From contig JAPWJW010000001.1 of NCBI GenBank assembly GCA_028283825.1, forward strand, positions 930,001 to 994,000: a DNA stretch of 64,000 nucleotides, read 5' to 3'. Made by a program: the position numbers and the translations under genes. Below the pieces are notes generated by a model. It did not search any database. It had not been told where the DNA came from and worked only from the letters and a program-made list of their open reading frames with translations. Shown here piece by piece: positions 2,015 through 29,482 of the stretch. How positions within the stretch are numbered: the first letter of the stretch is position 1; every line of letters begins with the position of its first letter. This DNA is from Azospirillaceae bacterium. GTDB taxonomy: Bacteria > Pseudomonadota > Alphaproteobacteria > Azospirillales > Azospirillaceae.

Positions 2015-2055
2015 ATCCGGACTTTTCATTTCGAATAGGCTGATTGGGGGGCCAT

Positions 2056-3078
2056 ATGCGGGGTTGGGTTGGGCGTGCCTGCGGGCGCGGGTTGCTGGCG
2101 CTGGTGGGGCTGGGCATGGGGACGGCCTGGGCGGGGGCCGAGGATTGCCACCTGAACAAGGTGGCCGAACTGCCCATCCGGCTGGAACAGAACCAACCCA
2201 TCGTCGAGGGCAGCATCAACGGCAAGCCCATCCGCGCCCTGCTGGATACCGGTTCCTACCGGACCGTCCTGACCAGTGCCGGTGCGCAGCGCCTGGGCCT
2301 GGACGTGACCAAGCATTACTCGGCGGGCAAGGCCGTTGGCGTCGGCGGTGAGGTGGGCATCGGTTCCACGCCGGTGGATGAGTTGGTGGTCGGCAGTTGG
2401 AAGATGAAGGATCTGAAACTTCAGGTCATCGGCACCGGCAATGTCGGGCCGGGGGTGGAACTGATCCTGGGGCAGGACATCTTCAGCCAAAGCGATATCG
2501 AGCTGGACTTCGCCGGCGGCATGGTCCGCTTCTTCAAGCCGGAGGGCTGCGACGGCGTTCCCCTGGCCTATTGGGCGCGAACCTATGCCGAGGCGGTGAT
2601 GCGCATGCCCGAAGGCGGCCGTCGCACATCCACCGAGCTGCGGGTCGCGCTCAACAGCTACGGGTTCTGGGCCAAGCTGGACACGGGCGCCACCGCCAGC
2701 AGCGTGCAGCTTCGCGCCGCCCATCACGCCGGGGTGCACGAGGACGATCCTGGCGTGGTTCCCAGTGGGGCCAGCCACGGCGTGGGGGCCAAGAGCATTC
2801 CAACCTGGGCGGGGACCTTCAATACCTTCACCATCGGGGATGAAACGGTGCGCAATGTGAAGATCCGCTTTGGCGACTTTTCCGCCGGCGACGATCCCGA
2901 GCGCGAAGGCAATCACGACATGCTGTTGGGGGCGGACTTCATCAAGACGCACCGCATCTACATCGCCAGCAGCCAGAACAAGATCTTCTTCACCAACGTC
3001 GGCCATCCGATCTTCGCCGCCGTGCCCAAGGCGCCGACCCCCAGCGCCGAACCGGCGGCGGAGGGGGCCCAGGACTGA
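2056..3078 (+). CDS. Exported retropepsin-like aspartyl protease, paralogue 2
   Basis: 340-residue paralogue of the preceding gene, separated from it by 41 bases. The ATG at this start is preferred over a TTG four codons upstream. Residues 1-27 form a signal peptide. Two DTG motifs (about D64 and D209), a LILGQD strand and a KPEGC motif match the neighbour nearly position for position. Aspartyl-protease halves normally pair to form one active site, and having both DTG motifs in one chain suggests a pepsin-like pseudo-dimer. The C-terminus adds an Ala/Pro/Glu-rich tail. The substrate is unknown. The spacing suggests co-transcription with paralogue 1. Confidence 0.75.
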   Translation: MRGWVGRACGRGLLALVGLGMGTAWAGAEDCHLNKVAELPIRLEQNQPIVEGSINGKPIRALLDTGSYRTVLTSAGAQRLGLDVTKHYSAGKAVGVGGEVGIGSTPVDELVVGSWKMKDLKLQVIGTGNVGPGVELILGQDIFSQSDIELDFAGGMVRFFKPEGCDGVPLAYWARTYAEAVMRMPEGGRRTSTELRVALNSYGFWAKLDTGATASSVQLRAAHHAGVHEDDPGVVPSGASHGVGAKSIPTWAGTFNTFTIGDETVRNVKIRFGDFSAGDDPEREGNHDMLLGADFIKTHRIYIASSQNKIFFTNVGHPIFAAVPKAPTPSAEPAAEGAQD

Positions 3079-22478: not shown

Positions 22479-22811
22479 ATGCCTGATTCGAAGCTCAACC
22501 TTCAGTTATCAAGCAAGATTGAAGATCTGAAAGGCGTCCGCCTGGCCGGTGTGTCCAAACCATTGGACCAGCTGACCGTGGCGGAATTGGTGGCCTTGCG
22601 TCCTGGCGGCGGCGGCACGGAAGCCGCCGACAGTTACAGTGTCAACGCCTTCACCGACAACGTCTCGGTGTCAACATCCTCCCTCGTCGACCAGATCGGC
22701 CAGATCGCCAAGGAAAGGGCGATGCGGGCCGAGGTGGAAGATGTGAAATTGGGGTCCTTGCGTCAGCGGCTGGGAACGGTCGCGACAACCGTGGTCAAGG
22801 CCAAGGGCTGA
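22479..22811 (+). CDS. Candidate RiPP precursor peptide
   Basis: 110 residues starting at an ATG with GGGAGAAG eight bases upstream. I know no named family for it. Residues 28-46 (PLDQLTVAELVALRPGGGG) resemble leader regions that end in a Gly-rich boundary. The segment after it, about residues 47-70, is Ser/Thr/Asn/Asp/Val-rich and holds the only aromatic residues, Tyr53 and Phe58. There is no Cys, so thioether chemistry on Cys is excluded. Residues 71-110 are helical and charged. Position at the head of a four-radical-SAM operon makes a modified precursor the best reading. An accessory or recognition protein is the alternative. Confidence 0.55.
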   Translation: MPDSKLNLQLSSKIEDLKGVRLAGVSKPLDQLTVAELVALRPGGGGTEAADSYSVNAFTDNVSVSTSSLVDQIGQIAKERAMRAEVEDVKLGSLRQRLGTVATTVVKAKG

Positions 22812-22844
22812 TCCCGCGTCTCGGGCCACTCGCCCGAAAACACC

Positions 22845-22876
22845 CGCGACGGCCGCGGAAGACGGCCCGCGCTTTT
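22845..22876 (+). terminator. Hairpin after the precursor gene (possible attenuator)
   Basis: CGCG-(AC)-GGCC pairs with GGCC-CGCG around a 9-base loop and is followed by CTTTTC. It lies 34 bases after the precursor stop and before the first radical SAM gene. Partial termination here would give more precursor than enzyme message, as in many RiPP operons. Confidence 0.45.
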
Positions 22877-23015
22877 CATCTGCCAAACGCAAAACGTCCT
22901 GGAAACACGAGGTCGAGCGTGGGTTCGCGCTCGCGCGGCCTGCGTTCGACCTTTCCTATCCAACCTTGTCCTATTCAACCTTGGGCCCGTGGCCCCACCT
23001 GACGGAGGGCGCATC

Positions 23016-24086
23016 ATGTGGATGTCCGACGGTGACCTGCTCGCCTTGCAGCGGCAGGGGGAACATCACATCGGGCTTAGCCTGACGGCCGCCTGTCCCA
23101 TGACGTGCAGCCACTGCGCCGCCGCTACGGTGCCGGCCCGCGACCATGCCAAGGTGGGCATGGCCGCCGACCTGGTCGCCCGGTTCTGCGGGGAACTGCC
23201 GGCGCTGGCCGCCCGGGGCGTCACCCGTCTCAGCCTGACGGGGGGTGAGCCCATCCTGGCCCTGGGTGCGGTGGCCGACCTGTCGCGGGCGGCGCGCGCC
23301 GCCGGTGTCGCCACCACCGTGGTCACGGGCCTGTTCTGGGCCACCAGCGCCGCCTCGCGCCGCCGCATCATCGCCGCCCTGCCCGACGTGGATTGCTGGA
23401 ACATCAGCTGGGACCGCTTCCATGCCGCGTATGTGAAGCTGGCGCATGTCGTGGCGGCCGTGGGGGATCTGCGCGCCGCCGGCGTCCGTGTCACCCTGCG
23501 GGTGGCCACGGCCGGGGAGGATGATCCCCATCTGGCCGCCCTGGCGCGGGCGCTACCCGACACCGAAATCGCCGTGCAGCCCATCCTGCCCGTGGGGCGC
23601 GCCGCCGTCGACACGCCGCCGGCCACGGGGGCGGAGGAGGCGCCGCGCTGGCCCTGCCTTTCCACCGGTCCGCTGGTCATGCCCGACGGCACCGCCCGGC
23701 CCTGTTGTTCCGCCATGATGGAGGAACCGGACCATCCCTTCGCCGCGCGCACTGCGCGCGACGGGCTGGTGGCCCTGCACCGCGCCTGGCTGGACGATCC
23801 CCTGCTGCTGCTGATCCGGGCGCTGGGTTTCCGGCCGGTGCTGCGCCTGCTACGGATCCTGGCGCCGGACCATCCGCTGCTGGCCGGCACCGCGCCGCAT
23901 CCATGCGCCGTCTGCGCCACCCTGTTCCGCGACCCCGCCCTGGCGGGCCGGCTGGCGGACGCGGCACGGGCGCCCGCCCTGGCCGCCCAGGTGCGGGCCG
24001 CGGCCACCGTGATTTTCCCTGCCCCACCCACCCCGTCCCCATCGCCTGTTTCGTCCAAGGAGAGCCGCCATGCTCACGCCTCCTGA
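23016..24086 (+). CDS. Radical SAM/SPASM-like peptide-modifying enzyme 1
   Basis: 356 residues from an ATG with GGAGGG upstream. The 4Fe-4S/SAM motif CPMTCSHC gives C27, C31 and C34, followed by the SAM-binding TGGEP near residue 75. The C-terminal half has a GTARPCCS motif and a later CAVC, resembling a reduced SPASM/twitch region for one auxiliary cluster. It is paralogous to the enzymes at 24070 and 27249, sharing the order SLT-CPxxCxHC-TGGEP-STGP-CC-CxxC. It is expected to modify the upstream peptide by radical chemistry; the exact reaction is unknown. The gene overlaps the next by 17 bases. Confidence 0.85.
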   Translation: MWMSDGDLLALQRQGEHHIGLSLTAACPMTCSHCAAATVPARDHAKVGMAADLVARFCGELPALAARGVTRLSLTGGEPILALGAVADLSRAARAAGVATTVVTGLFWATSAASRRRIIAALPDVDCWNISWDRFHAAYVKLAHVVAAVGDLRAAGVRVTLRVATAGEDDPHLAALARALPDTEIAVQPILPVGRAAVDTPPATGAEEAPRWPCLSTGPLVMPDGTARPCCSAMMEEPDHPFAARTARDGLVALHRAWLDDPLLLLIRALGFRPVLRLLRILAPDHPLLAGTAPHPCAVCATLFRDPALAGRLADAARAPALAAQVRAAATVIFPAPPTPSPSPVSSKESRHAHAS

Positions 24087-25290
24087 ACCCCTCTCCGGCC
24101 TTGCCCCTCCCGGCTTGCCGGCGGCGGACATGCCCGATCCGCGCACCACCATGACATTGACCGAGCTGGCTGACTTCCAGGCCATCGCCGGGCACCACAT
24201 CACCTTCAGCCTGACGCTGGCCTGCCCGTTGCGCTGCACCCATTGCATCGTCAGCGCCTCGCCGGACCTGAAGCACACCACCATGCCGGTGGCGGTGGCC
24301 CAGGCCTACGCCGACCAGATGCCGGCGCTGGCGGCGGCCGGCATCCGCAGCCTGAGCTTCACCGGCGGGGAACCCTTCCTGGCGCGTGAGCAGGTGAAGC
24401 TGCTGACGGAAAGTGCCGCGGCCAATGGCATCAAGTCCGGCGTCGTCACCGCCGGCCATTGGGGCAAAAGCCCGACGCTGGCCCGCCGCCTGGTGGAAGA
24501 ATTCCGGGGCATCACCAACTGGGACATCTCCATCGACAGTTACCACCTGGACTGGATCGAGCTGGGAACCGTGGTGAACGCCATCGAGGCGGCGCGCGAC
24601 GCCGGCCGGCGGGTCACCGTGCGTTACAGCTACAACGACCCGCCCACCGACGCCGACCGTGACATCTGGGCCGCCATCCACGACATCGCCGGCGTGGAGA
24701 TCGCCTCGCAACGGGTGCGGACGGAAGGGCGGGCCCGCGACCTGGCCCTGGAGGCGCCGCACCGCTATTCCCCCTGGGTCAAACCCTGCCTGACCCAGGG
24801 CATGGTGGTGCGTTACGACGGCAGCATCGCCCCCTGCTGCCTGAACCTGGTGGAGGCGCGGGAACATCCCTTCCAGTTCGGCGACGCCCGGACGCGGCCC
24901 CTGGCCGACCTGCACCGCGATTTCCTGTCCCATCCGCTGTTGCAGCTGATCCGCGTCCTGGGCTTCTCGGAAGTGTGGACCTGGCTGCGCGATGACGGTC
25001 TGGACGCCCTGGTGCCGGAGGAATTGCCGGACGATTCCTGCGACCTGTGCAGCCTGCTGATGCGCAAGCCGGCCGTCGCCGCCTACCTGGCGGAACGGGC
25101 GGCGCGGCCGGAGGTGGAGGCCCGCATCGCCTTGCTGGCCAGCCGGGTGCTGGGCGAACACACCATGGCGCTGCACCTGGTCCGCCGCTGGCGGGAGGCG
25201 CCGGACAGCCGGCCGCCCGGCTTCGCGGATTTCGATGACTATGTCGCGGCGGTCGCCGGGGAGGAGGTGGGCCATGCCCGTGCCAACTGA
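24070..25290 (+). CDS. Radical SAM/SPASM-like peptide-modifying enzyme 2
   Basis: 406 residues from an ATG behind AAGGAG. CPLRCTHC places the cluster Cys at 52, 56 and 59, followed by SFTGGEPFL. The C-terminal region carries GSIAPCCLNLVE and CDLC, matching enzyme 1. SIDSYHLDWIELG in the barrel is a conserved spot in this set. It overlaps its neighbours at both ends by 17 bases, so the locus is translationally coupled. It probably acts on the same precursor; whether the three paralogues act on different residues or form heteromers cannot be told. Confidence 0.85.
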   Translation: MLTPPEPLSGLAPPGLPAADMPDPRTTMTLTELADFQAIAGHHITFSLTLACPLRCTHCIVSASPDLKHTTMPVAVAQAYADQMPALAAAGIRSLSFTGGEPFLAREQVKLLTESAAANGIKSGVVTAGHWGKSPTLARRLVEEFRGITNWDISIDSYHLDWIELGTVVNAIEAARDAGRRVTVRYSYNDPPTDADRDIWAAIHDIAGVEIASQRVRTEGRARDLALEAPHRYSPWVKPCLTQGMVVRYDGSIAPCCLNLVEAREHPFQFGDARTRPLADLHRDFLSHPLLQLIRVLGFSEVWTWLRDDGLDALVPEELPDDSCDLCSLLMRKPAVAAYLAERAARPEVEARIALLASRVLGEHTMALHLVRRWREAPDSRPPGFADFDDYVAAVAGEEVGHARAN

Positions 25291-27238
25291 AACCCTGGCG
25301 GATGACGACGGCGGTGCGGTGGACATCATCTTCGCCGCCATGCCCTGGGCCACCACCACCCGGCCCTCCATCGCGCTGGGCATCCTGGACCGGCTGTGTG
25401 ACGAGGCCGGGGTGCGCTGCCTGTCCCTTTTCCCCAACCTGGACATGGCGGCGCTGATCGGCCTGGACGCGGCCCGGCCCATGGCGGATGAACGCGCCCT
25501 CTATGGCCTGGGGGAGCATCTGTTCGCCGTCGACCTGTTCGGGCGCGAGGCGCTGGACAGCGACGGCTTCCTGGAACTGATGTGCCGGCTGCCCCTGCCG
25601 CCGCCTTATAACGACCTGGCCTATGTCCGCCGCCTGCGGGATGAGGTGGTGCCCGTCTTCCTGGATGGGGTCGCCGCCCGCATGCTGGCCAGCGGTGCCG
25701 CGGTCTACGGTTTCACCGCTACCTTCAACCAGGTGATGGCCAGCCTGGCGATGGCCCGGCGCATCAAGGCCGTCCGTCCGGACGCCGTCATCCTGGCCGG
25801 CGGCGCCTGCTTCGATGGCGAGATGGGGCAGGAATACCACCGCGCCCTGCCGCAGCTGCTGACCCATGTGTTCATGGGCGAGGCGGAGGAAAGCTTCCGC
25901 GAGTTCCTGGCGCGATGGAAGGCCGGCCAATCCACCGCCGGCATTCCCGGCGTCACTTATGTCGAGGACGGCGACCTGCGCCTGGTGTCGGGTCACGCGG
26001 TGGAGGACATGGACGCCAGCCCCATGCCCAACTACTTCCCCTTCTTCCAGGAAGTGGCGGCCATCCGCGCCCGCACCGGCATCGAACTGACGGTGGAGGC
26101 CCTGCCGTTCGAAGGGTCGCGCGGCTGCTGGTGGGGGCAGAAGAACCATTGCGTCTTCTGCGGCATCAACAAGGACCTGCTGGGCTTCCGCGAGAAATCG
26201 GTGGACCGGGTGGTGGATGAGATGCTGGTGCTGACCCACCTGCACGGCGTGCCCAAGCTGACGGCCACGGACTGGATCATCTCCCGCAAGTCGCGCACCG
26301 AGATCCTGGAACGCCTGCGCGGGCAGGACCTGGATATCGAGGTGTTCTATGAGACCCGGTCCGACCTGGCGAAGGATGAAATCCGCCTGCTGCGGGATTC
26401 CGGCGCGCTGCGGGTGCAGCCGGGCATCGAATCCTTCTCCACCCCCGTATTGAAGCTGATGCGCAAGGGCACCACCGGCATCCGCCAGATCCGTTTCCTG
26501 AAATGGGCGCGGGAGTACGGCGTGAAGGCCTCATACAACATCCTGTGCGGTTTCCCCGGCGATGCGCCGGACTGGTACCTGGAGATGGCGGACGTCATCG
26601 AACAGGTGCCCCATTTGCAGCCGCCCACCAGCAACGCCAACTTCGTGGAATTGCACCGCTTCAGCCCCTTGTTCATGCGGCCGAAGGATTTCGGCATCCA
26701 TGAGTATGAACTGCGGGTCGATTACCGCTTCAACTTCCCCCAGGGATTGGTCGACCCGCTGAAGGTCGGCTATTTCTTCGAATACCGGTCGGACATGATC
26801 GCCGACCCCACGCAGTACATCGACCGGGTGCGGGCGGTGATCCGGCCGTGGATCGAGAACTGGGAAGGCCGGCGGCTGCCCCGGTGCGACTACCTGATCG
26901 GGCCCGAATTCGTGCAGGTGCACGACGGCCGCCCGGTGGCGGGCGAATCCCCTGAGGCGCGCACCCTGATCCTGCGCGGCCTGGCCAAGGACGCCTTCCT
27001 GCTGCTGGACGACGTGCGCACCGACCATGAGCTGGCCACGCTGCTGGCGGCCAAGTATCCGCGCCAGGTCGCCGACGGCGTGCTGGCCCGGACGGTGGAG
27101 GAGTTCATCGCCAGCCGCCTGGTGCTGCGCGAGGGCAACATGCTGCTGGCCCTGCCCATCGCCATCAAGCCGCGCGGGACGCGCGACCTGGAAACCTATG
27201 TCGTCGGGGCCGCGCCGGCGGCCCTGGCGGCGGAATAG
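25274..27238 (+). CDS. B12-binding radical SAM enzyme (RiPP maturation C-methyltransferase type)
   Basis: 654 residues from an ATG behind GAGGAGGTGG. Residues about 15-215 form a cobalamin-binding-like domain (VYGFTATFNQVMASLAMA, ILAGGACFDG, MGEAEESF). The radical SAM motif is unusual: GCWWGQKNHCVFCG, a C-x7-C-x2-C with C285, C293 and C296. This is characteristic of the bacteriocin-maturation radical SAM family 1. Members methylate unactivated carbons or are otherwise tied to RiPP loci. A C-terminal region of about 200 residues follows (FRFNFPQG-like, ENWEGR). It is the strongest single reason to call this locus a RiPP cluster. Confidence 0.85.
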   Translation: MPVPTETLADDDGGAVDIIFAAMPWATTTRPSIALGILDRLCDEAGVRCLSLFPNLDMAALIGLDAARPMADERALYGLGEHLFAVDLFGREALDSDGFLELMCRLPLPPPYNDLAYVRRLRDEVVPVFLDGVAARMLASGAAVYGFTATFNQVMASLAMARRIKAVRPDAVILAGGACFDGEMGQEYHRALPQLLTHVFMGEAEESFREFLARWKAGQSTAGIPGVTYVEDGDLRLVSGHAVEDMDASPMPNYFPFFQEVAAIRARTGIELTVEALPFEGSRGCWWGQKNHCVFCGINKDLLGFREKSVDRVVDEMLVLTHLHGVPKLTATDWIISRKSRTEILERLRGQDLDIEVFYETRSDLAKDEIRLLRDSGALRVQPGIESFSTPVLKLMRKGTTGIRQIRFLKWAREYGVKASYNILCGFPGDAPDWYLEMADVIEQVPHLQPPTSNANFVELHRFSPLFMRPKDFGIHEYELRVDYRFNFPQGLVDPLKVGYFFEYRSDMIADPTQYIDRVRAVIRPWIENWEGRRLPRCDYLIGPEFVQVHDGRPVAGESPEARTLILRGLAKDAFLLLDDVRTDHELATLLAAKYPRQVADGVLARTVEEFIASRLVLREGNMLLALPIAIKPRGTRDLETYVVGAAPAALAAE

Positions 27239-27248
27239 GGGGTGCCCC

Positions 27249-28481
27249 ATGGCCGCCGCCGTCATGACCGGCCAGGCCAGCGCGGAGGCGTTCACCCGCT
27301 TCCAGCGCCTGGCCTGGACCAACCTGGTGTTCAGCGTGACGCGGCGCTGCCCCCTGCGCTGCGCCCACTGCGTCACCGCCAGCGCGCCGGACGCCGCCTT
27401 CCCCGTGCTGGACGTGGATGAGGCCGGGCGCTGGGCACCGGACTTGGCGGCGCTGGCGGCGCTGGGTCTGCGGACCGTCACCTTCACCGGCGGGGAACCG
27501 ACCCTGGCCCTGCATCCGGTGGCCACCCTGGCGCGGGCGGCGCGCGCTGCCGGCCTGCGCACGGCGGTGGTCACGTCCGGGTCCTGGGGGGCCAGCGCGC
27601 CCTTGACCGGCCGGGTGATCGGCCTGCTGGGGCCAGCGGTCGATGCCTGGGATTTCGGTTACGACGCCTATCACGCCCGCCACCTGGCCCTGCCGGCTTT
27701 CATCCGCGCGGTGGCGGCCGCCTGTGACACGGGGGCCGAGGTGGCCGTGCGGCTGTGCGAGGCCGACGCCGTCTCCACCCAGGCGGTCCTGGCGGCGCTG
27801 GAGGGGGCGTTGCCGACGGCGGTGACGGTCATCGTGCAGCCCACCCTCGCCGTTGGGCGGGGGGCGGACCTGGTGCCGGACGGGGTGCTTGAACCGGCCG
27901 GCGGCGACGGCCCGTTGGCGCCATGCCTGTCCACCGGTCCTTTCGTGCGGGAGGATGGCAGCGTCGGGCCCTGCTGCGCCGCCCTGGGATATGGCGCCCG
28001 CGGGCGTCACCCTTTGGAATATGGCGGTCCGGGTGGCCTGGTGGCGGCCTGGCGCCGGTGGCGGGCCGACCCGCTGTTGCGCTTGCTGCGCCTGGCGGGG
28101 TTCGCCCTGCCGTTGCGCTGGCTGGCGGAGGAAGGGTTGCTGGACCCGCAGGCGTTGGCCGGCGGCCATGTCTGTGAGGTTTGCCAGGGGCTGTGGGACG
28201 ATGATGGTCGCGTCGCGGCGATGTTGCGGCGGCGCGCGGAAGATCCGAAGCTGCTGGCATTGCTGGACGGGCTGGAGATCGCCCTGTTCGGCGCGGTGTG
28301 GTCGGAGACGGCGGCGGTTCCTCCGCCCCAGGGGGAAAACCGTGCAAGAGGCCTGTTTTGCCGAGGCGTGAGCCGTGTGACCAGACCCTGCTGCGCACCG
28401 TGGTGCGTGGCGAGGTTGCCGCCCCCGGGCCGCGCTATGCCCTGGCCCGCGCCATCGCCCGGCGGGATGGGGGGGCGCTGA
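27249..28481 (+). CDS. Radical SAM/SPASM-like peptide-modifying enzyme 3
   Basis: 410 residues from the ATG ten bases after the B12 enzyme stop. CPLRCAHC places the cluster Cys at 34, 38 and 41, then TFTGGEPTL. The C-terminal region has GSVGPCCAALG and CEVC as in its two paralogues. Homology-like sequence ends near residue 355; the last 55 or so residues (Arg/Pro-rich, CRGVSRVTRPCC) overlap the following gene in another frame and look like read-through. A lost upstream stop is possible. It presumably acts on the cluster's peptide. Confidence 0.8.
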   Translation: MAAAVMTGQASAEAFTRFQRLAWTNLVFSVTRRCPLRCAHCVTASAPDAAFPVLDVDEAGRWAPDLAALAALGLRTVTFTGGEPTLALHPVATLARAARAAGLRTAVVTSGSWGASAPLTGRVIGLLGPAVDAWDFGYDAYHARHLALPAFIRAVAAACDTGAEVAVRLCEADAVSTQAVLAALEGALPTAVTVIVQPTLAVGRGADLVPDGVLEPAGGDGPLAPCLSTGPFVREDGSVGPCCAALGYGARGRHPLEYGGPGGLVAAWRRWRADPLLRLLRLAGFALPLRWLAEEGLLDPQALAGGHVCEVCQGLWDDDGRVAAMLRRRAEDPKLLALLDGLEIALFGAVWSETAAVPPPQGENRARGLFCRGVSRVTRPCCAPWCVARLPPPGRAMPWPAPSPGGMGGR

Positions 28482-29482
28482 TCGCGGCGGCCCGGGACGA
28501 GGTCACCCGCCCCCTGATGCACCCCCTGGACCGCCTGCGCCTAGCGGAGGCGGTGGCGGAGCATGACCGCCCCCTGGCCGAACATGTGTTCCATGGGACC
28601 CGGCCTGCCTGGCCGCGCGCCGTCGCCGTCCGGTTCCAGGCCGCGCTGGCGCTGGCGGAATCGGGCACAGCCGTGGCGGATGGGGCGGTGGATTTGATGC
28701 CGGGCCAGGCCCTGCCGATTGTCGAGGCGACGGTGGACGGCCAGCGGGGCGTCTTCATCGTCGATACCGGCGCGCCGCACAGCGCGCTGTCGCGGCGCTG
28801 GTGCGTGGACCGGGGATTGGCCTGGAATGGCGCCGTGTCCCACCCCGTGGACGATGGCGCCGGCACGCGCATCCCGGCGGAGGCCGTGCGCCTGGGGCAT
28901 GTGGCGGCCGGCGGCCAGGCGCGGGACGTGCCGGCGGTGGTGTTCGACTTCCCCCCGGGTCTGGCGGTGGCCGGCATCCTGTCACCCCTGGACGTCTTCG
29001 GCGGCCGGCCGGTGCGGCTGGATTTGCGCGCGCGCCGGCTGGTGGTGGGCGAGGCCACGGGCGACGCCGGGGCCGGTTTGCCCTTCACGGCGCCGCTGCA
29101 TTGGCGGGGCGGCGTGCCGCTGGTGGCTGCCCGGGTGGCTGGCCGGCCGGGTTTCCTGATGGTCGACAGCGGCGCCGGCGGCGTCGTCCTGTGCCGGGCG
29201 TACGCGCGCATCTCGGGTTTGCACACGCCCCAGGCGACCACCACCATGTCGGCCGCCGGCGCCCTGGCGGTGGGGGTGGGTTTGCGGGCTGGCATCGCCG
29301 TTGGCGGCAGCGCCGAGGTTCAGGCCGATATCGCCTTGAAGCCCTGCCGCACCGTGGGGCCCGCGGCACCGGTTCTGGCACTGGACGGCCTGCTGGGTGT
29401 CGGTTGGCTGGGTGGCCGCATCCTGGACTTCAGCCGGGATCGTCTGTCGCTGGGCTTCGACGAAAGGGTGCCGGCAGCATAG
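28298..29482 (+). CDS. Cytoplasmic two-domain retropepsin-like aspartyl protease of the RiPP locus
   Basis: Up to 394 residues. The GTG used here overlaps the previous gene by 184 bases; a TTG at 28358 with AGAGG upstream is an alternative start. The first aspartyl motif is VDTGAPHSALS (D156 of the long form) and the second is VDSGAGGVVL (D290). Each is followed by retropepsin-like strands such as LDVFGGRPVRLDLRARRLVVG. Residues about 30-130 form a helical domain before the first half. There is no signal peptide, unlike the two exported paralogues at the left end. Leader removal from the modified peptide is the natural hypothesis. It converges with the NRPS operon, whose last stop is 72 bases away. 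Confidence 0.72.
   Translation: MVGDGGGSSAPGGKPCKRPVLPRREPCDQTLLRTVVRGEVAAPGPRYALARAIARRDGGALIAAARDEVTRPLMHPLDRLRLAEAVAEHDRPLAEHVFHGTRPAWPRAVAVRFQAALALAESGTAVADGAVDLMPGQALPIVEATVDGQRGVFIVDTGAPHSALSRRWCVDRGLAWNGAVSHPVDDGAGTRIPAEAVRLGHVAAGGQARDVPAVVFDFPPGLAVAGILSPLDVFGGRPVRLDLRARRLVVGEATGDAGAGLPFTAPLHWRGGVPLVAARVAGRPGFLMVDSGAGGVVLCRAYARISGLHTPQATTTMSAAGALAVGVGLRAGIAVGGSAEVQADIALKPCRTVGPAAPVLALDGLLGVGWLGGRILDFSRDRLSLGFDERVPAA

Follow-up and report, generated by a model that had tools for sequence, protein, structure and literature searches.

Which kind of product is made by a cluster in which one small protein gene is followed by three paralogous radical enzymes, a B12-dependent enzyme and a protease? 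We address this question for a 64,000-nucleotide window of contig JAPWJW010000001.1 (positions 930,001 to 994,000, forward strand; assembly GCA_028283825.1) from an Azospirillaceae bacterium, whose genome comprises 7.16 Mb in five contigs. At positions 22479-29482 of this window we confirmed six open reading frames (ORFs) on the + strand, encoding a small protein, three radical S-adenosylmethionine (rSAM) paralogues (rSAM1 to rSAM3), a B12-binding rSAM enzyme and an aspartic protease. An initial annotation, made from the letters of the window, had interpreted them as a probable undescribed system for a ribosomally synthesised and post-translationally modified peptide (RiPP). We conclude that the six genes are a real, conserved peptide-modification cluster, and its recurrence as one unit in very distant bacteria indicates that it is probably a pathway for an unstudied, heavily modified peptide.

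We conducted a pattern-based scan of an 84,980-species collection with the three paralogues as queries and kept the best 80 of 184 relatives, which correspond to 79 distinct loci; these loci were searched with the six window proteins. Among these best 80 of 184, the complete six-gene set was found in identical order in an alphaproteobacterial metagenome-assembled genome (MAG; locus L024), a Nitrospira MAG (L025), Cereibacter ovatus JA234 (L026) and an Acidobacteria MAG (L029), and three further genomes carried partial sets. One of these, a short cut contig (L028), contains rSAM2, the B12 enzyme and the beginning of the protease. Non-conservation across genomes would have spoken against the initial annotation, and the analysis showed that the ordered set recurs in several phyla. 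The genes therefore hold together as a conserved unit, as had been proposed, except that two members are not universal: an Acidobacteria locus (L048) has the set without rSAM3, and a Peptococcaceae MAG (L027) has only the small gene, rSAM1, rSAM2 and the B12 enzyme, followed by other genes, and lacks both rSAM3 and the protease. The small gene was found in six of the 79 loci, and these are the six in which the contig extends far enough to include this end of the cluster. In other words, it heads every fetched cluster in which it could be seen, and its absence from homologous loci, the second observation that would have contradicted the initial annotation, was not encountered. A tblastn relative of the window B12 enzyme is present in 11 of the 79 loci (L024-L031, L033, L048 and L058).

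We also determined how common the system is among nearer relatives of its carriers. Among 59 relatives from the same genus, family and class, the small gene was found in the window's own genome only, and rSAM2-type matches beyond that genome were weak (3 of 82 family genomes, E-values of 6e-23 or worse). A profile of the small protein detected no other carrier in the order (161 genomes), family (294) and order (39) of three carriers, and none in 234 genomes of the Nitrospira carrier's order or in 395 of a sample of the phylum Acidobacteria; with the carrier included, these partly overlapping samples comprise 162, 295, 40, 235 and 396 genomes. An rSAM profile gave matches in the window's own genome only, among 385 genomes. 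This suggests that the system is rare and patchy, and such a distribution suggests horizontal spread of the cluster. Carriage by plasmids or viruses was considered separately and rejected: there was no plasmid match for the L025 small protein, plasmid matches of the window rSAM2 were less than 30% identical with none covering 80%, no phage match was obtained for the L025 rSAM2, and the 62 pattern matches in viral contigs included no relative of the small-protein profile.

The coordinates of the six genes are given in Table 1. The small gene and rSAM1 are separated by 204 nt. At each of the other four junctions the genes either overlap or leave a gap of no more than 43 nt, according to which start codon is taken, in agreement with the tight coupling of the five downstream genes described initially. 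The rSAM3 frame is open from 27027, and its C-terminal tail extends into the protease frame; because it shares 184 nt (28298-28481) with the longest protease frame, the start of the protease is uncertain. The protease of L025 begins at the base directly after the rSAM3 stop. A promoter and terminator scan of the upstream region gave one promoter-like site (1.0 in shuffled sequences) and three terminator-like sites (1.3 in shuffled sequences, standard deviation 1.2).

Table 1. Genes of the cluster, with positions in the 64,000-nucleotide window
Feature	Positions	Strand	Remarks
Precursor-like protein	22479..22811	+	ATG 22479; 110 residues; Cys-free; 6 homologues aligned
rSAM1, EpeE/YydG-type radical SAM, clade r1	23016..24086	+	ATG 23016, GGAGG 7 nt upstream
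rSAM2, EpeE/YydG-type radical SAM, clade r2	24070..25290	+	Start ATG 24070 or 24130
B12-binding radical SAM C-methyltransferase family TIGR03975	25235..27238	+	Cx7Cx2C; ATG 25235 or 25274
rSAM3, EpeE/YydG-type radical SAM, clade r3	27264..28481	+	ATG 27249 or 27264
Two-lobed retropepsin/pepsin-like aspartic protease	28298..29482	+	Start GTG 28298 or 28400, ATG 28517

The layout attributed to the three paralogues (CxxxCxxC, GGEP, CC and CxxC) is present in all of them; rSAM1 and rSAM3 are 33-36% identical to rSAM2, and all 25 related proteins in the alignment retain each of the eight EpeE-type cysteines. The original label 'SPASM-like' is loose, because only rSAM2 reaches the Pfam SPASM family; the paralogues are of the EpeE/YydG type and not of the SPASM thioether type. 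The best solved relative of the 25-member profile was EpeE/YydG (E-value 4e-31, profile positions 14-321 of 365), and the next was SkfB (9e-9, positions 24-207). An AlphaFold model of rSAM2 (mean predicted local distance difference test score, pLDDT, 90.9) aligned to EpeE with a template modelling (TM) score of 0.81 when normalised to EpeE and 0.66-0.69 when normalised to the model, whereas every other entry among the 50 matches listed had a TM score of 0.59 or less. The paralogues thus have the radical SAM CxxxCxxC motif and C-terminal cysteines of EpeE together with, in the modelled member, its fold. EpeE abstracts a Calpha hydrogen, and its Cys223 has been proposed to give one back, according to reviews (PMC8326336 and PMC5682303). 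Comparison of the PDB sequences of the wild type and the C223A variant placed this hydrogen donor at the second Cys of the CC pair, and the equivalent residue, Cys237 in rSAM2 when numbering starts at 24130, is conserved without exception in the 25 rows. Judging from this alignment and the model, the three paralogues probably work like the EpeE epimerase.

A maximum-likelihood tree of 26 rSAM proteins resolved three separate clades, r1 (7 rows, support 95/95), r2 (8 rows, 99/98) and r3 (5 rows, 100/100), each of which extends across several phyla; the window rSAM1 forms a long branch, which makes its exact placement uncertain. The split between the three enzymes apparently predates the spread of the cluster, and they are therefore unlikely to be redundant copies.

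The C-x7-C-x2-C motif reported for the B12 enzyme was found in the segment CWWGQKNHCVFC, and it is conserved in 11 of 11 homologues, the window protein included. The proposed membership in the RiPP C-methyltransferase family was likewise verified, since the enzyme matched TIGR03975 with 504.6 bits (cut-off 281.85) over model positions 1-606 of 606. The same motif is found in PoyC, a demonstrated C-methyltransferase (PMC5682303 and PMC11285071). Comparison with PDB by sequence gave distant Elp3 matches only. A PqqD-like leader-binding domain (RiPP recognition element, RRE) at the C-terminus is only hinted at: PF05402 matched the enzymes of L048 (E-value 0.0032) and L058 (0.034), both below the cut-off, there was no PF05402 match in those of the window and L025, and hhalign of the B12 enzyme with the PqqD of its own genome gave a probability near 0. 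A second, different B12 rSAM gene occurs in the same genome (L020; G000:C2:223817-225655); it is 36% identical to that of the window, and one match (33-35% identity) was found in each of the six other genomes of the genus.

The last gene had been described as a two-motif retropepsin-like protease without a signal peptide, and both points were supported. The protein contains DTGAP and DSGAG motifs and two Pfam Asp_protease_2 stretches, and no strongly hydrophobic segment was found in its first 60 residues counted from 28388, nor at the N-termini of the aspartic proteases of the other loci. Both D[TS]GA motifs are present in six of the seven proteases, namely that of the window and five complete relatives, and the protein on the cut contig L028 shows the first only. 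The window protease was modelled from a six-row alignment (pLDDT 76), and the model, in which an N-terminal helical domain precedes the lobes, resembles a Bacteroides endopeptidase, tethered human immunodeficiency virus (HIV) protease, renins and plasmepsins; the single chain would therefore combine two D[TS]G motifs with a duplicated fold. The gene belongs to most sets, with L027 as the one from which it is missing. The words aspartic, aspartyl, retropepsin and pepsin have no hits in the main text of a review on RiPP leader proteases published in 2023 (PMC10885120), and a full-text literature search combining aspartic protease, leader peptide and RiPP in bacteria returned two papers, both unrelated. 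Two tandem aspartic-protease-like proteins are also encoded at 983-2014 and 2044-3078 of the window; the latter is TIGR02281-like but below the cut-off, the former has no NCBIfam match, and their N-termini are signal-peptide-like by eye only.

Next, we analyzed the small protein as the candidate precursor. As initially described, it has 110 residues and no Cys, and all seven compared precursors are Cys-free. Its six homologues, each at the head of a homologous cluster, are 38-46% identical to it; a small precursor gene is thus conserved beside modifying enzymes, which is the arrangement expected of a RiPP locus. The window protein has no Pfam or NCBIfam match at E-values up to 1, and those of L025 and L029 have no NCBIfam match at 0.01. 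A proteusin leader of the nitrile-hydratase-like (NHLP) type and a Nif11 leader were rejected, since no family match was obtained. Two blocks stand out in the alignment. Residues 15-43 have a mean pairwise identity of 66%, end in LRPG and are leader-like; residues 51-73 have one of 47%, after which identity drops to 21%. We infer that the first block is a leader and the second a core, in which residues 51-67 (DSYxVNAxTDNxSxxTS) are the candidate for modification. To see whether another short gene accompanies the clusters, we compared by blastp (E-value 1e-3) the 821 ORFs of at least 25 residues that, apart from the six genes themselves, lie up to 6 kb away from seven loci, or as far as the contig extends. 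There was no other conserved short ORF, and recurrence was confined to a subtilisin gene and antisense frames over it.

This subtilisin is a seventh gene, located directly 3' of the aspartic protease in L024, L025 and L026 and recognised by a Pfam S8 match of the L025 copy and by the Asp, His and Ser motifs that each copy carries. The precursors of the same three loci are tailed (132-136 residues, the tail ending in DPFKA), whereas those of the window, L027, L029 and L048, loci in which the subtilisin was not found, are short (102-110 residues). Subtilisin and tail thus occur together in three of seven loci and are jointly absent from the other four, a perfect co-occurrence with a chance of 1 in 35 when kinship is ignored. 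A motif, LPRPEDD[IV]F, is found in the L025 precursor tail and also at the C-terminus of the L024 and L026 subtilisins. At the DNA level, a pattern encoding exactly PEDD[IMV]F was present once in each of the three subtilisin genomes, always within the locus, and in none of three genomes that lack the subtilisin; its reversed control had no match. These patterns point to a subtilisin that may act on the precursor tail, its own tail being a mimic or a shared docking tag.

How does the cluster relate to known systems? It resembles the epipeptide system EpeX/EpeE (YydF/YydG) of Bacillus subtilis in the EpeE fold, the combination of radical SAM and C-terminal cysteines and the hydrogen-donor Cys, as well as in the small precursor gene of the same locus (PMC7026026). 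However, there are three EpeE-type paralogues here and not one, a B12 methyltransferase and an aspartic protease are added, the precursor lacks an NCBIfam match, and Asp210 of EpeE is absent. With the proteusins (polytheonamide, poy; PoyB/PoyC, PoyD) it has in common a TIGR03975-type enzyme with the Cx7Cx2C motif of PoyC and, if our reading holds, methylation combined with epimerisation. It differs in having an aspartic protease and no NHLP or Nif11 leader family match, and no PoyD-type family was among the matches listed for the six proteins (best 25 per protein, among which a member should stand near the top). The protease resembles clan AA enzymes (TIGR02281, Asp_protease_2; tethered HIV protease and the renin/plasmepsin fold) in that a single chain forms two lobes and each lobe bears a D[TS]G motif, but has an extra N-terminal helical domain and a fixed place in an rSAM peptide cluster. 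The gene set therefore differs from those of epipeptides and proteusins, though its enzymes probably work like theirs. It was not named in the titles or opening lines of abstracts among the literature matches listed (at most 20 per search), which does not prove that it is undescribed.

Based on these results, our best model is a new RiPP family that combines epimerisation, C-methylation and maturation by an aspartic protease. The 110-residue protein would be the substrate, its leader being residues 15-43 and its core approximately residues 51-76. The B12 rSAM enzyme would add methyl groups at unactivated carbons, while each EpeE-type enzyme would remove a Calpha hydrogen and replace it with one donated by the conserved Cys equivalent to Cys223, so that the three would produce D-residues at different positions. 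The two-lobed aspartic protease, which is predicted to be cytosolic, would then cleave the modified product, with a cut predicted near LRPG (residues 41-51) that probably separates core and leader, and in the tailed variant the subtilisin would act on the C-terminal tail. We regard a RiPP pathway, taken as a whole, as the likely explanation of the locus, although with a good deal of reserve. If it is correct, EpeE-type and B12 C-methylation radical chemistries are joined in one pathway, the three distinct EpeE-like enzymes offer a natural series for what selects residue and outcome, RiPP biology gains a type of protease that the main text of PMC10885120 does not mention, and substrate recognition can be tested directly in the variant with tail and subtilisin.

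Several observations weigh against this model. Most of the carrier genomes are MAGs, and their taxon labels are therefore somewhat doubtful. The tail link draws on seven loci, of which L024 and L026 are sisters in the tree; moreover, the L025 subtilisin stops before the motif and only looser versions of it (SDDVF, TEDVF) occur in the precursors of L024 and L026, so that the exact sequence is not found on both proteins in any one genome. For a RiPP core, the candidate shows unusually high conservation, with block 15-43 more conserved still, and the 6 kb around the clusters contain no recurring exporter gene. As for the rSAM enzymes, the rSAM2 model is 20% identical to EpeE, EpeE Asp210 (mutated in PDB 8ai6) corresponds to Gly in 24 and Ser in one of the 25 rows, and the TIGR04078 scores of the three are 50.9, 63.8 and 34.1 bits. 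Since the cut-off is 300, they are not filed under TIGR04078, and since Asp210 is replaced, their chemistry may differ from that of EpeE; for both reasons we only infer their reaction.

These last points lead to a variant within the RiPP reading, in which the EpeE-type enzymes form crosslinks, dehydro or other Calpha-modified residues instead of epimerising. It would account for the replacement of Asp210 by Gly or Ser in 25 of 25 rows and for scores so far below the epimerase family cut-off, and three old paralogues suggest three distinct roles. However, the donor Cys that epimerisation requires is present in every one of the same 25 rows, and the fold is nearest to EpeE and not to SuiB or SkfB. 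We consider this variant possible but doubtful.

A second variant within the RiPP reading concerns the product, which could be a conserved intracellular cofactor or signal and not a secreted antibiotic. Block 51-67 is conserved across phyla, and such strong conservation of a core would suggest a single product directed at a fixed target, as in peptide-derived cofactors; the lack of a recurring exporter gene and of strongly hydrophobic N-terminal segments in the aspartic proteases points in the same direction. On the other hand, the rare, patchy distribution suits a specialised metabolite, and exporters may be encoded elsewhere, and we raise this variant tentatively. Taking both variants to their limit, one may speculate about a new RiPP class in which three Asp210-less EpeE-type enzymes of ancient divergence carry out different Calpha-radical reactions on one strongly conserved, C-methylated block of 17 residues, whose release by the retropepsin-like protease yields an intracellular cofactor or signal conserved across phyla. 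We think this combination unlikely; if true, it would, as far as the main text of PMC10885120 covers the field, be the first case of a RiPP freed by an aspartic protease of the retropepsin type, with one variant trimmed by a subtilisin bearing the tail motif of its own substrate.

We also considered that the small protein might be an accessory or carrier (PqqD-like) subunit that is not consumed, with the true substrate elsewhere. Its N-terminal block is its most conserved part, and the absence of a Pfam or NCBIfam match would fit such a role. Nevertheless, the 821 ORFs near the seven loci offered no other conserved candidate, and the subtilisin tracks the tail of the small protein and has a motif in common with it, which makes a subunit improbable. 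Finally, a chance neighbourhood of unrelated rSAM genes is rejected as practically inconceivable, given the ordered recurrence in several phyla and the clade structure of the rSAM tree.

Related combinations of genes were observed elsewhere. Three cousin loci (L030:9667-12973, L031:9735-12991 and L033:4821-8074) each carry one EpeE-type rSAM and one TIGR03975-like enzyme, preceded by a protein of 76-83 residues with a conserved AASYI[KR]EIIT block. Homology of these small proteins to the precursor was rejected, since hhalign gave a probability of 0.2%, and for this reason their SY....[IV]T likeness to it remains a hint. In a Thermoplasmata archaeon MAG, L058:409-5594 contains an EpeE/YydG-like protein that scores 83.7 bits against TIGR04078 (cut-off 300), a TIGR03975 enzyme with 553 bits, ATP-binding-cassette-transporter-like genes (by reading only) and a 116-residue protein with a very hydrophobic C-terminus; it is a possible archaeal system for an epimerised and C-methylated peptide. 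A genome of the same family as that of the window (G014) encodes an EpeE-like rSAM at L003:1375-2847 after a small protein of 116 residues, a candidate substrate. An EpeE-like gene annotated as radical SAM/SPASM also occurs on plasmid pAt1 of Allochromatium tepidum (L008:8989-10014), where its neighbours are type III-B CRISPR genes and a Csm6 gene is nearby. In the window itself, reading of the ORFs at 29820-56208 indicated nonribosomal peptide synthetase/polyketide synthase-like genes on the - strand, and the + strand of the same region carries SbnA- and SbnB-type 2,3-diaminopropionate genes and an asparagine-synthase-type gene, all three above the NCBIfam cut-offs.

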